From positions 95,508-159,507 of IMG/VR virus record IMGVR_UViG_3300037137_001027: a stretch of 64,000 nucleotides of DNA; one strand, written 5' to 3'. A program made the position numbers and the translations under genes. A model generated the notes under the pieces. It was given only the letters and a program-made list of their open reading frames with translations, searched no databases and had not been told where the DNA came from. Each line of letters begins with the position of its first letter. The first letter of the stretch is position 1. This stretch comes from a virus. Below, one piece after another: positions 18,615-59,578 of the stretch.

Positions 18615-21600
18615 ATGCCAGTCGATGTATTTGACCGTAAGGTAAGTGCCAGTATTGACGAGATTAAGGCAGCATTACTTGGTGATGTTGGCAACAAAAA
18701 GACTGCGCAAAAAAAGGATGAAAACACCGAACAACTTAAAAAGCTCAATGATAATCTAGAAAAGATTGTTGGAAATGACCTTGACAGGGAATTAAAAGCT
18801 CTTAACAAATTAATCAAGCGAGTAGCAGATTGTTGTGAAGAACAGTCTGGCAAACGAAGTCAAAATCTTGATAAAGAAGCAAAAGCTTATGCTAAGGCAG
18901 TTGCCAAAGCATTAAAGCCAGCTAATGGTGGCGACATATCAAAAGTAATTAAAGATACATTTGGCGGTATCAAACCAGCGTTCGATAAAATTACTGATAA
19001 AACGATGGATTTTGGTAAGGCTCTGGAAAGAAGCCAAAGAAGATTTAGTGCTGCATTCGGTATGATCGGCAAGGACTTCACAAAAACTTTTGGCGATATA
19101 GGGAAACTAAATCCTTTCAAGTGGTTTCAAAAAGAGGGGGAGAAGGCGACTAAAGAATCCCAAAACATGTTCCGCAGTGGGTGGAACACAACCATAAGTT
19201 TTTTCAAAGATAACTGGCAGCGCATGACTACTGCCGTCTCAAGTAAAGCTTCTGCTTTGTGGGAAGGAGTTACGAGTAAAGCTTCTGCTTTGTGGGAAGG
19301 AGTTACGAGTAAAGCTTCTGCTTTGTGGGAAGGAGTTACGAGTAAAGCTTCTGCTTTGTGGGAAGGAGTTACAAATAGGGTTTCTGGCTGGTGGAAAAAG
19401 ACCACCGATGTAGCTTCTGATTTATGGGGTAAAGTTACAAAAAGGGTTTCAGATAGTTGGGTCGGCAAAACATTTGGTTTTATAGGGCGTTCTGTTGATA
19501 CGCTGGGTAAGGCTGTAGGCGGTACAGTTAGAAATTTATTAAATTTGGGCAAAACCACAGGAACAGGAAAGCAAAAGAAATCTCAAAGCGATATAGATGA
19601 TTTAACTGGCAAGGGTAGAACAGTGCATGGTGAAGGAACGCCAGTTGGTAAAGGGCGTAAAACAAAAGGAGCAGGTGGTACATCTGATTTATGTCGTTGT
19701 ATTTGCAGATGTATAGGAAAGCTACTTGGAGTAACCAAAGAAGGAGTAAAACAATCTAAGCAAGGAGTTAAGCACTCTAAAGATATCAGTAAAATTGGGT
19801 CAAGTCAATTGCGGCAGGGCGCGAAAAAAGACATGACATTAAAACCAGCTACAGACACAGGTGAAGACATTCGTAAATCCCTGGAGGAGGAGAATGACAG
19901 GCGTGAAAAACTAGAAAGAAAAAGGGCAAATTGGGAAAGACGTAGCCAGGATGTAAAAGGCCACATAAAGACGGCTACTGGTTTCCTTAGTCAAGTCATG
20001 TCAGCAGATAAGGGTGACACTGCGAGAGTAATAGCTCAAGGCTTGGCTAACAGCATATCAAAAGCTGCTGGATATATAGTTGGCAAGCCACTTGAGGTAT
20101 TAGGTGGCTTTTTAGAGAAACAAAACGTTGAAATCCTTGGTTTTGGTGGCAACTTAGCTTTTCTTGGCGCTCCAATTAAATTCTTGGGTGAAGCTCTTGG
20201 TGGTCTTGCTGAAGGTATAACAAGTTTAGTTTTACAGCCATTAGCGGATGAAGTGGTTAATTTCCAAGAAGAAATGCAGGCCATGTATATTACCAGAGGT
20301 GCAACCAGAGGTGGTCGAGTTGCTGGAGGTGTTGGTGCGCCAGGTCTTACTGGAATGGCTCAAGGGGTTCAGGATTGGACTAACAACATAGATATTGCGG
20401 CAAAAAAAGAAGAGATGTTGGGGCGTAATGCTGCGGAAATTGCTGAAACAGGGCAGAAATTATCAACGATCCAGAAACAGCACGTCAAAAACCTGAAAAT
20501 GGGTATTAGAGAAGAAGATAAGTTTAACAAAGCCTCTAATATTGGTTTAAGGGCATCTTCTCAAATAGGTTCTAATGCTGAGCAAACAGCAGATATGTTC
20601 GCTGAGTGGAAACAGAATTTAGGCGCATCAAATGTACAATTAGGGATGATGGAACGTGGTTTACTAAGCATTGCCAGGTCTACAGGCATATTTGGAGACA
20701 ATTTAATTAAGGTTGCAAGGTCGTCTCAAAAATTCATGGAATATATGAGAATGTCTGGTACTTTTACAGCCAAAGCATCCAACAACATTGTAGGTTTGAT
20801 GGCTGAAGCACAAAAACGTGGTGTTAGCAAAGGTATGGAAAATTTATTAGAGGTTTTTAAGCAAAGTTTGCTTAGTCCAGAAGGCGGTGGTTTAAAAGAT
20901 TTCGTAACAGCATCAATTGGAGGTGATGAGCCATTAAGGGAACGTATGATAACGGGGACGTTGATGCAAGATCGTGGTTCACAAAAGATGCTTGCTCAAA
21001 ATATGAGTAAAAAGTTCAATGAATGGGCTGCGGACATGTTCCAAGGTAAGAAATTTGACCAATTAAGCATTGAAGAAAAGGGCTTGTTTGATGTTTTCAT
21101 AAGGCAAATAACAAAGAATCAAGCTGGAGCGGAAGAGTTAAATCAGCTTATAAAAGGCATGATAGAAAATACAAAAAACTTCTCTGAAAGCATGAAAGAC
21201 TTAGAAGCTGGTGCGAAGAAAGGCAAAGCGGGTTTAACCGAACAGGAAAAAACTACACAAAGACAACAACTCATCTATAACACAAGTGATGAAATACTAG
21301 AAGATTATACGCGAGCATTAAAAGAGTCAACAGATGCAATGGGCAAAGCAGACGTTGGCAAGGCTTTCGAAAAGCTTAAAGAGAGTTCAGAGGATTTAAC
21401 CAGTTTTTATGAAAGCCAAAGCATCGACATGAATAAGGGTGCCGCCTCGATTGGCGATATTCTAAGAAAACAGGTAGAACAAGTCCGTAAAAGGGCAGAG
21501 AAAGAAGGTTTAACAGCACAGATGATAGGAGCAGCAGGCATTGAAAAAGAAGATATAGACAATGCATTAAAGGAACTAGAAAAAGGCAATACAAAAGATT

Positions 21601-24151: not shown

Positions 24152-24769
24152 ATGCCAAGAGGAACTAAAAATGATGGGTCATTAGCCCCATTACAATATA
24201 CATCAATAGGTGGTGGAAAATGTGAAATACAAACACCTTGCGGATGTATTACATTAAAAATACTTCCAGAAATTACGGATAGTAAAGGAGCGCAATATGT
24301 CAATGACCCTGCCCCTGGCAGATCAAGCCCAATGTTGACTTATGCCTACTCAGAGTCTAGAAATATAAATACAGAATTACACTTCATGATAACCACATTT
24401 GACGATATATCCGAAAACATCAGAGCAATTAGAATTATCCAAAATTTAGTTTACCCAGGTGCAGGCACAGGGATAGCTCCTTTTACGCCGCCGCCTGTGA
24501 TTAAATTTGTTTGTGGTCAACTATTAGATGGACCTGATGGATTATGTATGGTACTTAAAAGTTATAACATACGTTATCCTACGGAAGTGGCGTGGGATGT
24601 AAAAACTTTTCTACCTTATAAATTTTCGATTAGTTGTAATTGGGAAGTTGTTTATCCGTGTAACAAATTGCCAGTTAATAAGTGTATAAACAGGGACAGT
24701 GGTGATGCTATTTTGTTCCCTGGAGACGATTTCTCGCCAGGAGAATTCCCACAGTTTTATCAAAAGTAA
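24152..24769 (+). CDS. baseplate/tail-hub structural protein, 205 aa
   Basis: Strong AAGGAGG ribosome binding site upstream. Begins MPRGTKNDGSLAPLQYTSIG, then has LPEITDSKGAQYVNDPAPGR, YAYSESRNINTELHFMITT, VCGQLLDGPDGLCMVLKSYN and a C-terminal WEVVY strand. This pattern of beta segments, placed between tape measure and the gp53-like gene, matches tube-initiator or hub-adaptor proteins of large myoviruses. Eight cysteines, unusual for a tail protein, are shared with the neighbouring hub protein. Confidence 0.55.
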   Translation: MPRGTKNDGSLAPLQYTSIGGGKCEIQTPCGCITLKILPEITDSKGAQYVNDPAPGRSSPMLTYAYSESRNINTELHFMITTFDDISENIRAIRIIQNLVYPGAGTGIAPFTPPPVIKFVCGQLLDGPDGLCMVLKSYNIRYPTEVAWDVKTFLPYKFSISCNWEVVYPCNKLPVNKCINRDSGDAILFPGDDFSPGEFPQFYQK

Positions 24770-24784
24770 GCATAAGGAGACTAC

Positions 24785-25108
24785 ATGCCTAAACCAATTG
24801 AATATTCCAAGATGGAAGGAAGGTCTTATGTTCCTCCGACAAGTAGGTACGCTATGACTCCAATAATATATTACGAAGGCAAATTAGCATATCCTATATA
24901 CAGGAAGAAAAAAGCATCATTTAGTTCACAAGATCAACACTATGAAATAACAAAGGAAGTAGAATTCCGACCAGATATTGTATCATATAGGACATATGGC
25001 GCACCCGATTACTGGTGGAAGATAATGGAAATGAACGGAATGAAAGATATTTTGGAGTTCAGAGCAGGAAGAAACATTATCCTGCCTGGCGGTAGTTTAA
25101 TGTTTTAA
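24785..25108 (+). CDS. baseplate wedge protein, gp53-like
   Basis: 107 residues with AAGGAG upstream. The C-terminal part DIVSYRTYGAPDYWWKIMEM, then EFRAGRNIILPG, is a LysM-like fold with the Y-x-x-P-x-x-W-W-x-I pattern found in T4 gp53 and its relatives, which join the wedges of the baseplate. Length is about half that of T4 gp53 and close to many gp53-like proteins in other myoviruses. Operon position between hub proteins supports the call. Confidence 0.65.
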   Translation: MPKPIEYSKMEGRSYVPPTSRYAMTPIIYYEGKLAYPIYRKKKASFSSQDQHYEITKEVEFRPDIVSYRTYGAPDYWWKIMEMNGMKDILEFRAGRNIILPGGSLMF

Positions 25109-25116
25109 GGAGAAGT

Positions 25117-27312
25117 ATGGCTGTTCCACCTGTTCCACCTATAGAACCTGTGTGTTCATATGATATAGACCCTAATTTTCCACTTGTTTGCGATGTAGAT
25201 TATACAAAAGCATATTGTTGTAATCCTGCGCCTACAAGTGGGGATAAATTCGTGATATGCAAGGAAGAAGTCGGTGATTGTGTTGTTGGCATACCTGGCC
25301 CTGGCGCTCAGTACATGACTTTCCCCATCAGGAATAGTGATGACCAACCAATGTTAAAAACCGCATTGAATGGCACCACAATGTCAGCTTGGGTAAAGAT
25401 AGCTTTCCAACAATATTGCGGTCCTATTGAATATGCGCCCACAACTGCTCAAACCATTATTACGATGGGTAACTTGTCTCAACCATGTAATCCAGAACAA
25501 TGTAAAGCTATTATTAAGGCTTTTCAATATGGGTGGGGTACTGTTGACCAGGGCAATAAAGTCCGAGTCACAATTATGGATCAAAAAGGCAGTGAATTCC
25601 AACAATGGGTCCAAAGAATGGGCATTAACCCTGAAGGTAACTCAACACCAATTCAAGGTAAATATCGTATGAAAGTACAATGGGGTTGGTATGTTACTGG
25701 TGGCGCAGATGAAGATATTTGTGGTCAACCACCAATGCCTTTAGGCGACCCTGATTGTGGAAATAATACAGATTTAACTCCAGGTGGTCATCTTCCTATA
25801 ATTCCCGCAGCGCCAGGTTTTAATTCAGCATTCATAATTTGTAGTCCAGTATTATATTTTTTAACTGACTGGATTAACGTGCATTACGAAAATGGCAAGT
25901 TTATATATGAAGTCGAGGGTACAGATACATTACAACGTGGTCAAGAGAACAAAATTCAACAGATTTTTGGACGCTCTGGCAAACATTTCTACTTTACCAA
26001 GGCTGTTGAATTACTAGGGCAGGTTTCTTTCCCGCAGTTTCGTGTTGAATTTAAATGTTTAGATTCGAATGGTAAGGAAACGGACATAGAATTTGTAAAA
26101 CCAAATGGTGATACTACCTGTAGAGAAAAAAAATCAGAAGATACTGATTGTCTAGGATACGGACCATATAAAATTTACAGGGCCGATACCCGTGGGCCAC
26201 TTGAAATAATACGGGAGTGGCTCAACCAAGGTGTTTTGGCGAGAGACAAAACTGGTAAAGTTACCTCAGATAAACAAAGAGTTGGTATTACATTAAATTA
26301 TGACCCAACATATAAGTTTGTCCCAGCGGACGACATTAAGGACAAAACCACAAATGATAAATGTGCTACATGTACCTCTTCTCAACCACAATATGGAAGG
26401 TTGCTTGTGTGGGCGAACGCCATACCTTATTGTCAAGGAAACTTTACTGAAAGTCAAATTAACACTAGGTTAAAAGCTGTTTATATAGTTAACGGTGGAA
26501 ATTGCTCACCAGTATTAGCATTTGCTCCTACGTTCAGATGGCACGCAATGGCTGCACAACGAACCGCTGGTAACTCCACGCCAGTTGTAGGTACAAATGT
26601 CGATCAGAGAATAGGTTTCCGTAGAGTTAACTGTCCAATTGCTGCTGGCAGCGGCCCTAACAAGAATGCCGTACCAACAGGTACTCAAGAAGTTCAAATA
26701 ACTACTACACCTAGCACCCAAACGCAAGAGGCAGTATTTCACCACGTTATGGCTAACTTAATGATTGGTGCTATTGAAGCAGACTTAAGAGTTCAAGGTG
26801 ATCCTTCTAAGTGGTTATGTAGTCCAATTTATGGGTATGGAAGATGTGTTGGTATAGTGTTCGTTAATCCATTCTTCTTGGTAGACGACCCAAACTCAGC
26901 AATTAAATGCCCTGGATGGTTTGCAACTGATCCTGATAGTCCAAATGCTGCATTTAAAAGCAGTATTAACGAATTGCTTACGAGTAAAGGATGGTTTATA
27001 TTTGGTGTAGATCATCAAATTAAAGATGGTCAATACATAACTACTATAAAACTTAAACTAATTGCGCCTGGCGCTGAATTAAATCAAGCTGGTTCTGTTG
27101 TAAATCTTGGTGCGTGGGATGGCACAAGTATAGATGAAGGCACACCAATGCCATTTGGCGGTAGATTTGGTTGCTTGGATAAATTCTTAGTTGGTAATGC
27201 TGGTACTGCTTGGGGACAATCAGGGGATTGCCCTGGACACGTCACATGGATTGGTGGTGGGACAGCATGTTCTGATAACTATGTAACTGATCCTAACTCG
27301 CCACCAGATTAA
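25117..27312 (+). CDS. baseplate hub protein, 731 aa
   Basis: Starts after an AAGGAG 8 bases past the previous stop. A beta-rich domain with KVRVTIMDQKGSEFQQWVQR and KYRMKVQWGWYVTGG is followed by a domain with TDWINVHYENGKFIYEVEG, typical of hub proteins (gp27/gpD class) that bind the spike. There are more than 25 cysteines, many near the N-terminus and in CATCTSSQ; this is unusual for a cytoplasm-assembled structure. Placement directly before the gp5-like gene fits the T4 gp27-gp5 pairing. Confidence 0.5.
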   Translation: MAVPPVPPIEPVCSYDIDPNFPLVCDVDYTKAYCCNPAPTSGDKFVICKEEVGDCVVGIPGPGAQYMTFPIRNSDDQPMLKTALNGTTMSAWVKIAFQQYCGPIEYAPTTAQTIITMGNLSQPCNPEQCKAIIKAFQYGWGTVDQGNKVRVTIMDQKGSEFQQWVQRMGINPEGNSTPIQGKYRMKVQWGWYVTGGADEDICGQPPMPLGDPDCGNNTDLTPGGHLPIIPAAPGFNSAFIICSPVLYFLTDWINVHYENGKFIYEVEGTDTLQRGQENKIQQIFGRSGKHFYFTKAVELLGQVSFPQFRVEFKCLDSNGKETDIEFVKPNGDTTCREKKSEDTDCLGYGPYKIYRADTRGPLEIIREWLNQGVLARDKTGKVTSDKQRVGITLNYDPTYKFVPADDIKDKTTNDKCATCTSSQPQYGRLLVWANAIPYCQGNFTESQINTRLKAVYIVNGGNCSPVLAFAPTFRWHAMAAQRTAGNSTPVVGTNVDQRIGFRRVNCPIAAGSGPNKNAVPTGTQEVQITTTPSTQTQEAVFHHVMANLMIGAIEADLRVQGDPSKWLCSPIYGYGRCVGIVFVNPFFLVDDPNSAIKCPGWFATDPDSPNAAFKSSINELLTSKGWFIFGVDHQIKDGQYITTIKLKLIAPGAELNQAGSVVNLGAWDGTSIDEGTPMPFGGRFGCLDKFLVGNAGTAWGQSGDCPGHVTWIGGGTACSDNYVTDPNSPPD

Positions 27313-27324
27313 TAAGGATAAAAA

Positions 27325-29598
27325 ATGGCATCTAAAAACGTAAAAGAGCATATTAAAGCTTTATATGACTTAGTTCAAGCTCATGAAAAAAGACTAAGGG
27401 AGATGAACTTTCAGGCTAATTATAAAAAGATATTCAAGAAGAAGCTCCAATATTACCAACAGAGGATATCGTATCGCGGACTACACTTAGCTTTATGCGT
27501 AGATACACGCGATCCACTAAAACAGAACAGAGTTAGATATTTCAGTCCAATCTTGCATAATGGCTTAATGTTTAGCCAAAAAGCTCTATTTGATGGGCAG
27601 CCTGGCGAGAGCCAAGTTACTAAATTAGAGGCTTTAGATTGGGCGTGGCCTGTTTCCTCAATGGGTGGTTTTGACGATACTGGATTAAATTGGGTTCCAC
27701 CTCCAGGGTCAATGTTATGTTTAATGTTTCTGCATGGCTCCCCACAAATGGTATTTTACTTAGGTAGCACTTGGTACAGAGATAAGGGACCAATCCAGCA
27801 CGACAATTGGAACTATCACATCCAAGAATATTACAAGATTTGGGAAGGACACCGTAATGGTTACATGGTAGGCGCAAACGATGAATCACAGGTTTACCCA
27901 CACAACAACACTGATAATTACCAAGGTTACGATGTAGACACACAAACAGATGTGGAGTTCTCCCCCGACTCGGTTACTAAAACTACCTGGCCACATCAAT
28001 ACAGTATTTCCAGTCCAGAAAAACACCGCGTTATCATGGACGACGGTGATCCAAAGTGTAATAGAAGATGGAAGAGATTAGAAGTAATTTCAAGTATGGG
28101 TAATCTTTTATTAATGAAAGATGACCCATATCATCCATGTGGTGAATGGCTAAATCCACAATGTTTTATTTCTTATGTTGACGTAGTGCCAAAAATTTGC
28201 GCTGTGTCGATGACAATTTATACTGATCCTCTCAACAATATAATAAAATTTGTTCCAACCGATGTACCTTATACTTGTCCGCAAGGTCCAGAAAACTGTA
28301 ATACAATTCCAGAAACTCCAAGTTTAACAGTAGACCAAGAATATGTTGGGACTGGCACTTTCTCCTTTCCGTCAGGTGGCGTGACAGGCGTTGGATACGG
28401 TGGCGCTCGCATCCCTGTCGTGGTAGGGAGAGAAGATTGGTGTCCACCAAAGACGCCATTTCCTGACGTTATTCTACCAGAAATACCGAAAGATTGTTTA
28501 CATGGCATTATCGACGGTCTAACCGACTTTTGTTTCAAATTTAACAACTATGGTAAGAACAAATATCAAAAACACAGACACGATTGTTACCCATATTATT
28601 GTCAAGATTGCGGGTTAAATCAGTCGGGCATTCAAGTTCGTTCTCGTTCAGGGGCCACTATAGTATTTGATGATTCTGTGGAGGAGCCAAGGGAAAAGCC
28701 AGAATGGGAACGAACTTTGAAGCCTTTCGATTATGACGGTTGCACAGGTAATTTCCGTGGTAGAACTTACTGGCGTTCCGCAACAGGTCATTATATCGAA
28801 ATGGTTGACTATGAAGACCAACCACACTTACGAAGTAAACGCAATGGTATTAACATCGTTACTGCTTGTGGTAATCAAATTTGTTTGAATGATGAAACAC
28901 TGCCAGGCTGTGTTGCTGGGCCATTGCGCGGAATTCACATGAAAAGTACAGCCAATCATACTTTTGATATGGTTGACGAACTTAATAAACAATGCAGTGC
29001 TGACCGTAATGGTTGTTCTAAGACTGGTCCTTACGCAAAGAAAGCGTTCGTAAGACTTCGAAGTGGTTACGGAATAACGGTAACATTATGCGATTTCCAT
29101 GACCAGACGAAGACTGACCAGCAGTATTTCCAGATTATGTCGCCTCAAAAGGATAATCTTATTCGTGGCCCACACGTTCTTCATATGCAAGAACGCCCAC
29201 ATGGGCCAGGACAAATCTTCCTGCGTGCAGGTGGAGATTATATCGTTTACTCTTACGACAAATTCGTGGAAGTCGTGGGAGAAGAGAAGGATAATCCATC
29301 CGACAAAATGGAGTTTATTTCTCGCCATAAGTTAGTGAGCGTTAAAGACGTTTATTATAATCGTGCTGGCACTCATGTATTTTGGGCTGACGACTATATA
29401 TTCTTACTGGCTGGAAAGGATTGCGAGCCACAAAGCCCTGTTGGACAGGGGCAACCTTGTGTGTATCCAGTTGTAGTCGCTTTCCAACAAATTCCTGAGT
29501 ATGTCTCTGCTGTTACAGGACTTAAGGCAAGCGAACATGTGTTTGCTTCCGCACTACATGAGCCAGAGCCGTGTGAAGGAATAGCCAGCGATACTTGA
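27325..29598 (+). CDS. central spike/gp5-like OB-fold protein, 757 aa
   Basis: Short coiled N-terminus, then an OB-fold domain at about 55-145: HLALCVDTRDPLKQNRVRYF, DWAWPVSSMGG, GSMLCLMFLHG and VFYLGSTW. This is the gp5/VgrG-type start that anchors the spike to the hub. No lysozyme motif is visible. The remaining 600 residues are beta-rich, with repeated R-S-x-x-G-x-x-[IV]-x-[FM]-D-type strands (IQVRSRSGATIVFDD, MKSTANHTFDMVD), as expected for a spike shaft. It should form the membrane-puncturing tip together with the hub. Confidence 0.65.
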   Translation: MASKNVKEHIKALYDLVQAHEKRLREMNFQANYKKIFKKKLQYYQQRISYRGLHLALCVDTRDPLKQNRVRYFSPILHNGLMFSQKALFDGQPGESQVTKLEALDWAWPVSSMGGFDDTGLNWVPPPGSMLCLMFLHGSPQMVFYLGSTWYRDKGPIQHDNWNYHIQEYYKIWEGHRNGYMVGANDESQVYPHNNTDNYQGYDVDTQTDVEFSPDSVTKTTWPHQYSISSPEKHRVIMDDGDPKCNRRWKRLEVISSMGNLLLMKDDPYHPCGEWLNPQCFISYVDVVPKICAVSMTIYTDPLNNIIKFVPTDVPYTCPQGPENCNTIPETPSLTVDQEYVGTGTFSFPSGGVTGVGYGGARIPVVVGREDWCPPKTPFPDVILPEIPKDCLHGIIDGLTDFCFKFNNYGKNKYQKHRHDCYPYYCQDCGLNQSGIQVRSRSGATIVFDDSVEEPREKPEWERTLKPFDYDGCTGNFRGRTYWRSATGHYIEMVDYEDQPHLRSKRNGINIVTACGNQICLNDETLPGCVAGPLRGIHMKSTANHTFDMVDELNKQCSADRNGCSKTGPYAKKAFVRLRSGYGITVTLCDFHDQTKTDQQYFQIMSPQKDNLIRGPHVLHMQERPHGPGQIFLRAGGDYIVYSYDKFVEVVGEEKDNPSDKMEFISRHKLVSVKDVYYNRAGTHVFWADDYIFLLAGKDCEPQSPVGQGQPCVYPVVVAFQQIPEYVSAVTGLKASEHVFASALHEPEPCEGIASDT

Positions 29599-39538: not shown

Positions 39539-39560
39539 TATATAGTATAAAGGAGTAGAA

Positions 39561-42500
39561 GTGCCGCGAGGGATACCGAAACCAGTATATCCAATTGCTC
39601 TCGATTCAGATTACACGCTGTTCAACGTAAAAAACAGTACGCAGGCCACTTTGTCCAAAGATTTAGAAAGACTAGACGATTTACTCAACATTGTTCCCCA
39701 AGATGCTAATTCAGTAGAAATATGGCCTGAAAACGGTTTCGTAACCATCGCTGACGAGCTAATTTATTATGATGCAGTGAACTTTGATGAAAATAGAAAA
39801 ATAAATCAGTTAAAAGATTGTATCCGTGGAGTCGAGGGTGAACCACAATCATATTATGAAGGTACAGCAATATACTCAAATGTGGTGGCACAGACCCACA
39901 ACCAATTAGTAGATGCTGTTATAGCAATTGAAGAGGCAATTGGTGATATTAGTGATGTATTAAAGGTAGGACCACAACTTAAAACTCAACAAAGTGTAAG
40001 AAAAAACTTATTGCCCCCACAAATTCAAAAAATGAATGCGTTGGCAGTTAGTCCAGACGCCTTACATGCAGCCCCACTAACTTCATCAATTTCTTCAATG
40101 GTAGGATGCTGCCCACAGGTGGGCGATGACGCCTGCCCCGATGTTGAATTTGAATTCAATAACACAGGTGGTTTAGCCGAATATTGCATACGAATTTTTG
40201 GCAACTATCTTTCTTTTGAACTTGATTTTGGCGACGGCTTCAAAGAAAACACTCAGCTATCTGGAGTTCATCAATACATAAGTGCTGGCCCTTACAATCC
40301 TACTGTAATGGTTGAAGGAGCAACTTGCTGTATAGTACAAAGTCCAACACCACCAAATGAATTCTGCTGCGGTATTAATCTACCAAATCCTTCTGTGCCA
40401 TTTGTGGTTCATATTCCTGACATACCAGCTTTTCCAGAGTTTATAGCTCCAAAACAAATATGCCCTGGACCGTTACTGAACTTGCCACCTATTTTATTGC
40501 CAGAAGTAAACTTATGTCCTTCACAGATATCAATGTCACAAATATCTTGTTGTGTGTCTGTAATTGAAGCGTGTAAAACACCACAGGTTATACAAATAGT
40601 TAGTCCATGCAAAATTAGCGTAATATCATTAGAAGGATGCCATTTGCCTAGCGTTATATCGCTGATTGGCTGTTGTATGCCAAGCATCGTGTCCTTCGAC
40701 GTAGTTATAGATTTGAGTATCGAGCCTGTATGCTTCTGTGAACCACCAAGCTTCGCCCCTATTAGCTTCGAGCCTGTATGCTTCTGTGAACCACCAAGGT
40801 TTGATGTGATTAGCTTCGCACCATTCCCAAGCTTTGACAGAATATCCTTCGACGTAGTTATAGATTTGAGTATCGAGCCTGTATGCTTCTGTGAACCACC
40901 AAGCTTTGGTGTAATTAGCTTCGCACCATTCCCAAATATTAAACCAGTGTCATTTGATGTAGCTATAGATTTAAGCATAGAACCTATATGCTTCTGTCAG
41001 CCGCCAAAATTTGATCCCATATCATTAGACTTAAACATAGACTTAAGCATAGAACCTATATGCTTCTGTGAACCACCAAGCTTTGGTGTAATTAGCTTCG
41101 CACCATTCCCAAATATTAAACCAGTGTCATTCGACGTAGCTATAGACTTAAGTATCGAGCCTGTATGCTTCTGTGAACCACCAAGCTTTGCTCTTATTAG
41201 TTTCGCACCATTCCCAAGCATTCAACCAGTGTCATTTGATGTAGCTATAGATTTAACCATAGAACCTGTATGCTTTTGTGAACCACCAAGCTTTGCTCCT
41301 ATTAGTTTCGCACCATTGCCAGCGTTTGACAGAATATCATTCGACGTAGCTGTAGGATTAAGTTTGGAACCTATATGCTTCTGTGAACCACCAAGCTTTG
41401 GTGTAATTAGCTTTGCGCCATTACCAGTATTTGACAGAATATCATTCGACGTAGCTGTAGGATTAAGCATGGAACCTATTTGCTTCTGTGAACCACCAAG
41501 CTTTCAATGCATAAGTTTCTGTCCAGTGCCAAGTTTTGCACCTATTAGTTTTGCGCCATTACCAGTATTTGACAGAATATCATTCGACGTAGCTGTAGGA
41601 CTAAGTATAGAACCTATTTGTTTTTGCGAACCACCAAAATTTGACTGCGTTAGCTTCTGTAATGTACCAAGTTTCGGCAACATTAGTTTTGGGCCATTAC
41701 CAGTATTTGACAGAATATCATTCGACGTAGCTGTAGGACTAAGTATAGAACCTATTTGTTTTTGCGAACCACCAAAATTTGACTGCATAAGCTTCTGCTC
41801 ATTGCCAAGTTTTGCACCTATTAGTTTTGGGCCATTACCAGTATTTGACAGAATATCATTCGACGTAGCTGTAGGACTAAGTATAGAGCCTATTTGTTTT
41901 TGCGAACCACCGAGTTTCCAGTGCGTTAGCTTCTGTCCACCGCCAGATTTTCATTGTATTAGCTTCTGTCCATCGCCAGTGTTTGCACCTATTAGTTTTG
42001 CTCCATTCCCTGTTATATCTCCTGTTAAGTTTGACGTAATTGTGGATTTGAGTATAGAACCTGTGTGTTTTTGCGAACCACCGAGTTTCCAGTGTATTAG
42101 CTTCTGCCCAGCGCCAGATTTTCATTGTATTAGCTTCTGTCCATCGCCAGTGTTTGCGCCTATTAGTTTTGCTCCATTACCTGTTATATCTCCTGTTAAG
42201 TTTGACGTAATTGTGGATTTGAGTATAGAACCTGTGTGCTTCTGTGAACCACCTAGTTTCCAGTGTATTAGTTTCTGCCCAGCGCCAGATTTTCATTGTA
42301 TTAGCTTCTGTCCACCGCCAATGTTTGCACCTATTAGTTTTGCTCCATTACCAGTGTTTGATAAGATATCTTTGGATGTGGCTGTAAACGTAAAGATAAG
42401 TCCTATCTGTTTTTGCGAGCCGCCTAGCATTAATTGCATTAGTTTTTGTCCATTCCCTATTGTGCCAGCAATTAGTTTTGCTCCATTCCCTGTTATATCT

Positions 42501-43775
42501 CCTGTTAATTTTGACGTAATTGTGGATTTGAGTATAGAACCTGTGTGCTTCTGTGAACCACCGAGTTTCCAGTGCGTTAGCTTCTGTCCACCGCCAGATT
42601 TCCCGTGCGTTAACTTCTGCCCACCGCCAGATTTCCCGTGCGTTAACTTCTGCCCACCGCCAACTTTCCAGTGTATTAGCTTCTGTCCACCGCCAACTTT
42701 CCAGTGTATTAGCTTCTGTCCACCGCCAATGTTTGCGCCTATTAGTTTTGCTCCATTACCTGTTATACCTCCTGTTAAGTTTGACGTAATTGTGGATTTG
42801 AGTATAGAACCTGTGTGCTTCTGTGAGCCGCCTAGCTTTCAGTGTATTAGCTTTTGTACACCACCAACCTTTACTTGTATTAGTTTCTGCGTACCAGAAG
42901 ATTTGTGCATTAGCTTCTGCCCAGCGCCAGATTTGTGCATTAGTTTCTGCACACCGCCAACTTTCCCGTGCGTTAACTTCTGCCCACCGCCAACTTTCCA
43001 GTGTATTAGCTTCTGCCCACCGCCAACTTTCCAGTGTATTAACTTCTGTACGCCGCCAACTTTCCCGTGCATTAGTTTCTGTCCACCACCGAGCTTCCCG
43101 TGCATTAACTTCTGTCCACCACCAGTCATTTCGGTTAATTGGGGTACGCCGCCAGTCGTAACCGTACAGGTTGTATGTCCATCTACTTCAATGGCTTTTG
43201 GGGCTGCACCGCCAATGACTGTCGCTCCAAATAAACGACAAATGACAGAGGAGATTGATGATGATAATTTGGCTATTAATTTAAGTGAATTGTTGCCTTC
43301 TGAAATTAAGTTAATAGTGCCTAAAATTAATGATATAAAGGTAATGCATGATTTGCCCCAAGAAATTTTCTTAAGAGGAAATTTACCAGCGGAAATTAAA
43401 GTTATAGGTCCAAGTCAGCCTATACCAGATACAATCCTTATTCGTGGAGATATTCCAAAGAGCATCGAGATAGTTCATAATCTGCCAGAGAGGATTATCC
43501 TTGATGCGAAAGATGTTCCTCGTAGAATTTTGGTCGAACCAGCACCTAATTTCCCAACTTCTATTAAACTGGAAGTTACAGGGATGCCACAAACTCTCCA
43601 AGTTACGGGCATACCAAAAACCATCGAAATCATCGAAAATATTCCAAGGACTATTCAATTACTAATGCCTGAGAATCCAGAAGTCATCATGCGATGGAAC
43701 GGGGTGCCAGTGGAATTAAAGCCAAGTCCAGATTTAGAAAAATTGTTGACTAACTTAGTTATTCCACAAAGATAA
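39561..43775 (+). CDS. giant Cys/Pro-repeat fibre protein, 1404 aa
   Basis: GTG start after AAGGAG. Residues 1-135 contain the third copy of the shared module (LKDCIRGVEGEPQSYYEGTA, HNQLVDAVIAIEEAIG). Residues about 375-1190 are an extreme repeat array: a 46-residue unit such as RISFDVAVGLSIEPICFC followed by EPPKFDCVSFC and ISFGPLPVFD, and in the second half 11-residue units like CISFCPPPTFQ. The C-terminal 190 residues use a related P-x-x-I-x-L-x-G repeat (DLPQEIFLRGNLPAEIKVIG). A long beta-strand-turn fibre is likely. Cys-x3-Cys spacing invites disulfide or metal pairing. No homologue recognised. Confidence 0.65.
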   Translation: MPRGIPKPVYPIALDSDYTLFNVKNSTQATLSKDLERLDDLLNIVPQDANSVEIWPENGFVTIADELIYYDAVNFDENRKINQLKDCIRGVEGEPQSYYEGTAIYSNVVAQTHNQLVDAVIAIEEAIGDISDVLKVGPQLKTQQSVRKNLLPPQIQKMNALAVSPDALHAAPLTSSISSMVGCCPQVGDDACPDVEFEFNNTGGLAEYCIRIFGNYLSFELDFGDGFKENTQLSGVHQYISAGPYNPTVMVEGATCCIVQSPTPPNEFCCGINLPNPSVPFVVHIPDIPAFPEFIAPKQICPGPLLNLPPILLPEVNLCPSQISMSQISCCVSVIEACKTPQVIQIVSPCKISVISLEGCHLPSVISLIGCCMPSIVSFDVVIDLSIEPVCFCEPPSFAPISFEPVCFCEPPRFDVISFAPFPSFDRISFDVVIDLSIEPVCFCEPPSFGVISFAPFPNIKPVSFDVAIDLSIEPICFCQPPKFDPISLDLNIDLSIEPICFCEPPSFGVISFAPFPNIKPVSFDVAIDLSIEPVCFCEPPSFALISFAPFPSIQPVSFDVAIDLTIEPVCFCEPPSFAPISFAPLPAFDRISFDVAVGLSLEPICFCEPPSFGVISFAPLPVFDRISFDVAVGLSMEPICFCEPPSFQCISFCPVPSFAPISFAPLPVFDRISFDVAVGLSIEPICFCEPPKFDCVSFCNVPSFGNISFGPLPVFDRISFDVAVGLSIEPICFCEPPKFDCISFCSLPSFAPISFGPLPVFDRISFDVAVGLSIEPICFCEPPSFQCVSFCPPPDFHCISFCPSPVFAPISFAPFPVISPVKFDVIVDLSIEPVCFCEPPSFQCISFCPAPDFHCISFCPSPVFAPISFAPLPVISPVKFDVIVDLSIEPVCFCEPPSFQCISFCPAPDFHCISFCPPPMFAPISFAPLPVFDKISLDVAVNVKISPICFCEPPSINCISFCPFPIVPAISFAPFPVISPVNFDVIVDLSIEPVCFCEPPSFQCVSFCPPPDFPCVNFCPPPDFPCVNFCPPPTFQCISFCPPPTFQCISFCPPPMFAPISFAPLPVIPPVKFDVIVDLSIEPVCFCEPPSFQCISFCTPPTFTCISFCVPEDLCISFCPAPDLCISFCTPPTFPCVNFCPPPTFQCISFCPPPTFQCINFCTPPTFPCISFCPPPSFPCINFCPPPVISVNWGTPPVVTVQVVCPSTSMAFGAAPPMTVAPNKRQMTEEIDDDNLAINLSELLPSEIKLIVPKINDIKVMHDLPQEIFLRGNLPAEIKVIGPSQPIPDTILIRGDIPKSIEIVHNLPERIILDAKDVPRRILVEPAPNFPTSIKLEVTGMPQTLQVTGIPKTIEIIENIPRTIQLLMPENPEVIMRWNGVPVELKPSPDLEKLLTNLVIPQR
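40690..43130. repeat. complex 138-bp and 33-bp repeat array in fibre gene
   Basis: The 138-bp unit (46 residues) is seen with copies starting near 41581, 41719 and 41857, with more diverged copies upstream from about 40690. From about 42590 units of 33 bp (11 residues) dominate, with near-identical pairs at about 42601 and 42634. Copies keep Cys, Pro and Phe positions. Confidence 0.9.
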
Positions 43776-43776
43776 T

Positions 43777-44604
43777 ATGCTAATTAAAAATCACATAAAC
43801 AAGAATGAATATTGTTTGTCAAGAAGCGGTCATTGGGTTAGAAATTTTACCAAACCTATAATTAAGCCCATTGACATAAATGACATTACGCCTTTAGAAG
43901 ATATTAAGCTCATTGTAGAGAATGAATTCAAAAACAGTCTCAAAAAGTATCCACCTTGGGAAGAAGGTTCGCATGAAAAAGCAGTCATAATAGGTGATGG
44001 TTACGGGTTTGACGAAAGTTTGAAAGCCATTGAAGAACTGCCATCGGATGTAGTAATCATTGGGGTCAATAAAGCATTTGCCAAATGGCAAAGTCAGCGA
44101 AGGTTGAATTATTATGTAGTAAACAACCCATACCAGGAATGTTTATATTATTATCCGCAGATAATTAGGTCTTGGCCAAAATGCATTGCTTCTACAAGAA
44201 CTTTTGCCCATTTTCTAGAAGTTTATAAAGGTTCATTAAACACTTACTCACCTACGGCTGGTGACTTTTATAACGGTCCATTCTTGGACCAAAGTAATTT
44301 TATTGATGATTATAGAAATCCAGTATGTGCTGCCGTAGGGATATCTTATAAACTTAATGTAAAGAAATTAGCCCTTATGTCAACTTTAGAAATGTACAAT
44401 GATGAGCGGCCTGGAGTGGATAAAATAAGGGATGGATTATGGATTTATCCACAACAAAAGGTAGCACACAACTTAATTGACGCTAATTTATATTGGATGC
44501 AAAAAGCAAAAATTAATGTAGCTTACACTAACCACGATCCAGTTTATGAATTTGCTACATATATAAAATTAGATGATTTGAAAAGGTTTTTCAATGATGG
44601 ATAA
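43777..44604 (+). CDS. DUF115/Maf-like carbohydrate enzyme
   Basis: 275 residues. KAVIIGDGYGFDESLKAIEE, DVVIIGVNKAFAKWQ and YYVVNNPYQECLYYYP match the MptE-like/DUF115 fold: a G-[DG]-G-x-S-x-x loop, a V-x-x-x-N-x-A strand, then a P-D/NNP segment. The family includes flagellin-glycosylation factors (Maf) and pterin kinases. It starts one base after the fibre gene stop, so it may modify that fibre. No Shine-Dalgarno. Confidence 0.6.
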   Translation: MLIKNHINKNEYCLSRSGHWVRNFTKPIIKPIDINDITPLEDIKLIVENEFKNSLKKYPPWEEGSHEKAVIIGDGYGFDESLKAIEELPSDVVIIGVNKAFAKWQSQRRLNYYVVNNPYQECLYYYPQIIRSWPKCIASTRTFAHFLEVYKGSLNTYSPTAGDFYNGPFLDQSNFIDDYRNPVCAAVGISYKLNVKKLALMSTLEMYNDERPGVDKIRDGLWIYPQQKVAHNLIDANLYWMQKAKINVAYTNHDPVYEFATYIKLDDLKRFFNDG

Positions 44605-59309: not shown

Positions 59310-59578
59310 CTGTCGTCATCTTCTTCGTCATCGTCCCAATCGTCATCGTCGTCATCTTCTTCGTCATCGTCCCAATCGTCATCGTCGTCATCTTCTTCGT
59401 CATCGTCGTCGTCATCTTCTTCGTCATCGTCCCAATCGTCATCGTCGTCATCATCTTCGTCGTCATCTTCGGGATCATCTTCATTATCCCATTCTAGATC
59501 GTTAAAGTCTTCATCTTCATCGTTATAGCGATGGCCAGCGAGCATTTTTAGACTCTTCAATAAAGGATCGTCATGCAT
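59306..59578 (-). CDS. polyacidic protein, 90 aa
   Basis: The ATG follows AGGAGAG. After a short N-terminus (MHDDPLLKSLKMLAGHRYND) nearly every residue is Asp or Glu, interrupted only by single Trp at regular spacing. The Asp/Glu run (over 50 residues) with Trp every 12 is unusual: acid tracts may mimic DNA, bind basic proteins or metal. The 36-bp repeats in the gene keep this pattern. An antisense basic reading frame is only a consequence of the repeat. Confidence 0.65.
   Translation of the reverse strand: MHDDPLLKSLKMLAGHRYNDEDEDFNDLEWDNEDDPEDDDEDDDDDDDWDDDEEDDDDDDEEDDDDDDWDDDEEDDDDDDWDDDEEDDDS
59312..59470. repeat. 36-bp tandem repeat in polyacidic gene
   Basis: Three or more near-copies of a 36-bp unit (read on the plus strand as CGTCGTCATCTTCTTCGTC and on) encode the 12-residue DDDDDDWDDDEE pattern, with an internal 21-bp partial unit. 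Confidence 0.8.

Follow-up and report, generated by a model that had tools for sequence, protein, structure and literature searches.

A predicted tail fibre with an 11-residue shaft step and paired cysteines, from a family found in uncultured huge phages

Results

The fibre gene and its surroundings

The stretch of DNA analysed here (the window) makes up the final 64 kb of a 159.5-kb record of an uncultured virus. It carries a gene for a protein of 1404 residues (Table 1), of which 101 are Cys (7.2%), with Pro at 15.8% and Phe at 9.7%; in the other large ORFs checked in the window Cys reaches only 0–4%. The initial annotation had described a long ORF with some 800 residues of Cys/Pro/Phe repeats, and this is borne out: the array spans residues ~373–1193, or ~820 aa. 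Relatives are designated below by the numbers of their loci (L003–L060). Loss of the reading frame in related genomes had been named as grounds for doubting the gene; the frame is open in every complete relative. To judge from substitutions in the array, the ORF is under purifying selection (dN/dS ~0.05–0.09, a rough estimate given the high dS and the chance of mis-paired copies), and differences among CxxxC copies fall mostly at third codon positions (695 of 1341). Since the longest exact repeat in the DNA is 94 nt, gross mis-assembly from ordinary short reads is unlikely, though possible. The feature is real and well conserved.

Table 1. Features of the fibre gene and its immediate neighbours (window coordinates)
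Feature	Position	Strand	Remarks
Neighbouring fibre/PKD protein, 338 aa	36405..37421	+	Start weakly matches the N-terminal domain of the fibre, 33% identity
Neighbouring fibre/PKD protein, 706 aa	37418..39538	+	PKD match
Ribosome-binding site of fibre gene, AAAGGAG	39549..39555	+	From sequence; five bases before GTG
Fibre gene	39561..43775	+	1404 aa; start GTG, stop TAA
N-terminal domain (putative virion attachment), residues 1–135	39561..39965	+	Predicted beta domain 27–107, helix 113–134
PKD-like domain (candidate) with extra Cys, residues ~185–265	40113..40355	+	Clade profile, AF2 strands
Pre-shaft segment, CPGPLLNLPPILLP ... GCC	40356..40676	+	Conserved in relatives' alignment
Shaft array	40677..43139	+	11-residue steps; 24 CxxxC strands, 17 CxC strands (strands predicted)
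Cap motif, PVISVNWGTPPVVTVQVVCPSTS	43140..43211	+	Kept in Cys-free relatives as TISVSWGTPPTVSCVVSVQCPS
C-terminal region, IPxxIxI/L repeats	43290..43772	+	Common to whole family
275-aa protein, function unknown	43777..44604	+	Adjoins fibre in all orthologs checked

The gene sits in a cluster of baseplate and fibre genes, the order of which is retained in relatives. Upstream lie genes for a gp25-like protein, a baseplate wedge, Tail_P2_I and a tail-collar fibre protein, and then two PKD-containing proteins; the sole family match of the 275-aa protein downstream is a weak one, MptE-like. High Cys, at 3.2–3.9%, likewise sets three proteins of the baseplate-hub region (24152–29598; 205, 731 and 757 aa) apart from neighbouring tail genes. 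Elsewhere in the window, tandem repeats of 33 bp (19242–19450) lie inside an 1840-aa ORF that occupies the position of a tape-measure protein, and short, dense tandem repeats of the TCATCG type fall between ORFs (59312–59482).

Domains on either side of the array

The AF2 model of the N-terminal domain is fair only for residues ~27–107 (pLDDT block means ~60–80 across 31–100). A Foldseek search of BFVD with this model returned, together with baseplate proteins, N-termini of phage tail fibres at probability 1.00, among them the Synechococcus S-SM2 Fiber and the ECML-117 tail fibre; the fit is ~3–4 A rmsd over ~85–100 columns and the E values are modest, mostly 1e-3 to 1e-2. The same search of the PDB gave nothing under E 0.1. 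By sequence the domain matches, weakly, a PHROG family of virion-structural proteins. A PKD-like domain is suggested by matches of the clade profile to collagenase PKD (E 0.005); PF18911 scores are 15.4 bits in the window's fibre and 20.1 in L003, below the Pfam cutoff of 27 that neighbouring ORFs pass.

Downstream of the array the P-x-x-I-x-I/L repeat reported earlier is present at residues ~1244–1380. The cap motif (core ISVNWGTPP) and the C-terminal region align with those of Cys-free relatives at an hhalign probability of 100% (E 1.3e-40), and a search of PDB sequences with C-terminal profiles gave chance matches only. No head domain was recognised in the window's fibre; L015, a relative that shares its N-terminus, carries an RCC1 beta-propeller. 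That propeller, the gene neighbourhood and the structural similarity of the N-terminal domain support the original designation of the protein as a fibre, and we consider it very probable that the ORF encodes a phage tail fibre.

The repeat of the shaft

The basic step of the array comprises 11 residues, F1-x2-x3-I4-S5-F6-x7-P8-x9-P10-x11. Autocorrelation peaks at 46, 35, 11 and 57 residues (0.32–0.37, against no more than 0.154 in 300 shuffles). Delimited by the CFC strand, super-repeats measure 16, 24, 35, 46, 57 or 90 residues, mostly 35 plus multiples of 11, and 35, 46 and 57 are the commonest lengths in the window's fibre. Both of the periods first proposed, 46 and 11, are therefore correct, but the list was incomplete: the step is 11 and 46 is one super-repeat among several. 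No Gly-X-Y triplets were seen in the array sequence, as a collagen-like shaft would require, and the period of 11 does not agree with the ~15-residue repeat of a triple beta-spiral. We found no literature on phage fibre repeats of 11 residues.

Beta-strands, and the faces of those strands, are predicted in the shaft from the alternation of I4 and F6. Single-chain AF2 models that took in the shaft (residues 1–480 and 1010–1404) were discarded, with pLDDT mostly 25–45 and no confidence in shaft or C-terminus. Low confidence of this kind, together with the high Pro content, might point to a flexible and mostly unstructured Pro-rich virion protein in place of a fibre shaft; given the strict 11-residue period, the hydrophobic pattern at I4 and F6, the fibre-like N-terminal domain and a strongly conserved C-terminus, we find that reading scarcely credible.

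An unnamed family of fibres

Close relatives of the fibre occur at L004, L005 (with DNA identical to that of L006), L016, L018 (C-terminal part), L007 and L003. The L007 contig, of the same strain, stops inside the array; L003 comes from a 595-kb phage record, LR756511.1, and has only eight CISFC units. Two others differ in their shafts: L013, whose N-terminus matches that of the window's fibre at 44%, builds its shaft from PSVISxxxCC units, and in L015 the common N-terminus and PKD domain are followed by a Pro-rich linker and the propeller.

With L015 as query, 37 loci (L024–L060) were found on contigs of up to 436 kb; L024 is the query's own contig, leaving ~36 beyond it, and a few of the 37 are duplicates. 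In most of them the shaft is made up of IPTLINFGPVN-like units, is almost free of Cys and has 11 residues as its commonest spacing. The Cys-free L027 and the window's fibre both carry PSFAPISFGP. The window's fibre belongs with these proteins by its homologous N-terminus, cap and C-terminus and by the 11-residue step with I4-x-F6. Behind the same N-terminus L042 (7953–10628), L055 and L056 carry other shaft repeats (SPFSITGPEY; ASFDWGDPPDI), so that the family exchanges or remodels its shafts.

No curated repeat family in Pfam, PHROGs or NCBIfam scores against the array. The shafts of relatives have no Pfam or NCBIfam match, and PHROGs gave a single marginal match, of unknown function. The earlier statement that the repeat belongs to no known family thus stands for Pfam, PHROGs, NCBIfam and PDB sequences, but requires amendment: there is an unnamed family in uncultured huge phages, most of whose members are nearly Cys-free. 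This fibre family is widespread in such phages and nameless in the databases searched. Two further identifications were rejected: a leucine-rich repeat in the Cys-free array (E 0.017), Pfam LRR being absent from the proteins scanned, and a host taken from a Dehalococcoidia MAG in a genome collection, based on one weak match that covers just 43 residues of the N-terminal domain.

In a tree of N-terminal domains the Cys-rich loci form a single clade (100/100), while the moderately Cys-bearing L052 and L053 fall within the Cys-poor group; Cys pairs therefore probably arose on more than one occasion, although with midpoint rooting the direction of Cys gain or loss is unproven. The usual shaft of the family is a Cys-free 11-mer, to which Cys was probably added in the window's clade.

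Change in array length

The initial annotation had supposed that recombination changes the length of the array, and relatives lend this support. L036 (7956–11309) and L037 (7956–11276) lie on near-identical contigs, and their fibres differ by exactly one 11-residue unit; orthologous arrays range from ~110 to 924 residues, lengths that are provisional given that they come from metagenome assemblies in which many family contigs stop within the array. Between the window's fibre and L004 the order of super-repeats is nearly the same, apart from small indels and one 31-residue difference.

Cysteines come in pairs

The register of the step was set from the Cys-free unit, P1-T2-L3-I4-N5-F6-G7-P8. On this numbering Cys in the window's fibre occupy positions 3 and 7 of a strand (CISFC) or 5 and 7 (CFC), and each of the 84 array Cys is accounted for by CxxxC, CxC or the GCC directly preceding the array, which contributes two. 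Among the distinct 11-mers of five arrays Cys is present at both 3 and 7 in 81, at neither in 84 and at one only in none, although repeat copies are related through duplication and such counts and tests overstate independence. Aligned Cys are kept in 76 of 76 cases between the window's fibre and L004, its nearest relative, as against 93% of Phe, 88% of Pro and 78% of array residues overall, and the only Cys difference between the two is a joint change at positions 3 and 7 of one strand.

The rule is not universal. In L016 (9983–14137) 7 of 18 CFC strands read RFC, which breaks it for the CxC type. An RFC strand is followed by a CxxxC strand in 7 of 7 cases, compared with 3 of 11 for CFC (Fisher p 0.004, with the RFC copies duplicates of one another). 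Pairing takes other forms elsewhere: L013, on a related branch, groups its Cys into 15 CC doublets and one single, and L052, on a separate branch, has CxC and CC arrangements with at least one single Cys.

The initial annotation had suggested that the cysteines could cross-link or bind metal along the fibre; from sequence comparison, the pair rule speaks for Cys that act two by two. The residue might instead serve as a small, partly hydrophobic packing residue whose pairs reflect the copying of a few unit types; whole-unit duplication does inflate the pair statistics, and relatives manage without Cys. Set against this, Cys is the most conserved residue of the array, 165 distinct units include no strand with a single Cys at 3 or 7, and L013 and L052 hold Cys pairs at other positions. 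We judge a packing role highly improbable.

If the Cys act in pairs, the question is where each finds its partner. Eight Cys strands of the window's fibre are flanked on both sides by strands devoid of Cys, and Cys strands are irregularly spaced. These features disfavour regular partners within a chain and favour partners at the same level in other chains, or metal. Disulfides between neighbouring strands of each chain, in a meander or solenoid, would be conceivable in stretches like the final ten strands, where each Cys strand has Cys-bearing neighbours; with eight strands isolated, the number of strands between Cys strands varying and no regular partner on offer, we regard this arrangement as quite unlikely.

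Discussion

A proposed stapled trimer

We propose that the protein serves an uncultured huge phage as a long tail fibre and has a trimeric shaft in which paired Cys form interchain disulfides at the same level; we hold this proposal to be about evenly poised between right and wrong. The N-terminal domain, judging from structural similarity and gene position, would dock the fibre onto a contractile-type baseplate, and the PKD-like domain would connect it to a shaft built of 11-residue steps, each a beta-strand plus turn. Three chains would run in parallel as a homotrimer, one step making one level of the shaft. At chosen levels each chain would present exactly two Cys (at 3+7 or at 5+7), which would share the outward face of the strand, and the three chains would form three same-level interchain disulfides, stapling the shaft. 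The cap and the IPxxIxI region would terminate the fibre, and gain or loss of whole steps would shift both the length of the array and the number of stapled levels. The sequences themselves show the architecture of the protein, its family, the pair rule, the selection on it and length differences by whole steps; from these we infer the trimer, the strand faces, the disulfides and a receptor role for the protein.

Two considerations recommend the arrangement. With two Cys per strand and chain, all thiols at a level could be satisfied in a symmetric homotrimer; and because eight Cys strands are isolated and spacings of 16–90 residues fit no fixed solenoid stacking, the partners of a Cys are most simply sought on the same strand of the other chains.

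The main alternative to disulfides is metal (Zn, Cu or Fe-S) bound by the Cys pairs of the trimeric shaft. Thiolate sites could be built from the six Cys of a level, CxC and CxxxC are spacings of metal ligands, and pairs that are present or absent as a whole suit chelation as well as they suit disulfides. Moreover, the reducing cytoplasm in which phages assemble would initially favour metal, and any disulfides would consequently form mainly after lysis; the Cys-rich records, themselves fragments, yielded no thioredoxin or glutaredoxin that might assist oxidation. But His is scarce near the Cys (FHC, in three units only of the window's fibre), and the geometry of the ligands varies, with position 3 or 5 joined to 7 and vicinal CC in L013. 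Disulfides are the more likely, and metal binding along the shaft is an unlikely, if serious, contender. A metal-thiolate array that extends over many levels and three chains, and makes the stiffness or adhesion of the fibre dependent on metal or redox state, is very unlikely.

Comparison with known systems

The window's fibre is a new variant of phage fibre, from a family nameless in the libraries searched. What emerges is an unnamed and widespread class of huge-phage fibre with an 11-residue shaft step, to which one clade adds Cys strictly in pairs. Should those pairs cross-link the chains, the fibre would be stapled, with any 11-residue step either plain or stapled. The shaft offers a clear test of the means by which phages make very long fibres stable, and its fold is worth structural work.

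The nearest comparison is with the unnamed family itself (L024–L060, from IMG/VR; LR756511.1), which has in common with the window's fibre the N-terminal and PKD-like domains, the 11-residue step, the WG-PP cap, the IPxxIxI C-terminus and a similar gene order. Most of its shafts are nearly Cys-free with FGP at positions 6–8, whereas the window's clade has Cys in place of x3 and G7 (or at x5 and 7).

Triple beta-spiral fibres, as in adenovirus and reovirus, are trimeric, with beta repeats of ~15 residues, conserved hydrophobic residues, Pro/Gly turns and variable copy number. A beta-repeat shaft with conserved hydrophobics, Pro/Gly turns and variable copy number is common to both, the trimer and the strands being predictions in the present case, but the spiral repeats every ~15 residues rather than 11 and is without a Cys ladder. 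In type III collagen a Cys knot with two Cys per chain gives three interchain disulfides in a homotrimer; that is a single knot ending a Gly-X-Y helix, whereas the window's fibre has many levels along a predicted beta shaft.

Phage Milano offers a precedent, a Cys-rich virion in which a network of interchain disulfides runs through the tail, baseplate and fibre attachment – including the attachment of the tail spike and short tail fibre – and affects tail function (PMC10811340). The bonds of the window's fibre are, by comparison, predicted. Cys makes up 7.2% of this protein against 2.1% of Milano structural proteins (PMC10811340), and while the Milano bonds connect different globular subunits, here it is a Cys-patterned repeat array that extends along one fibre.
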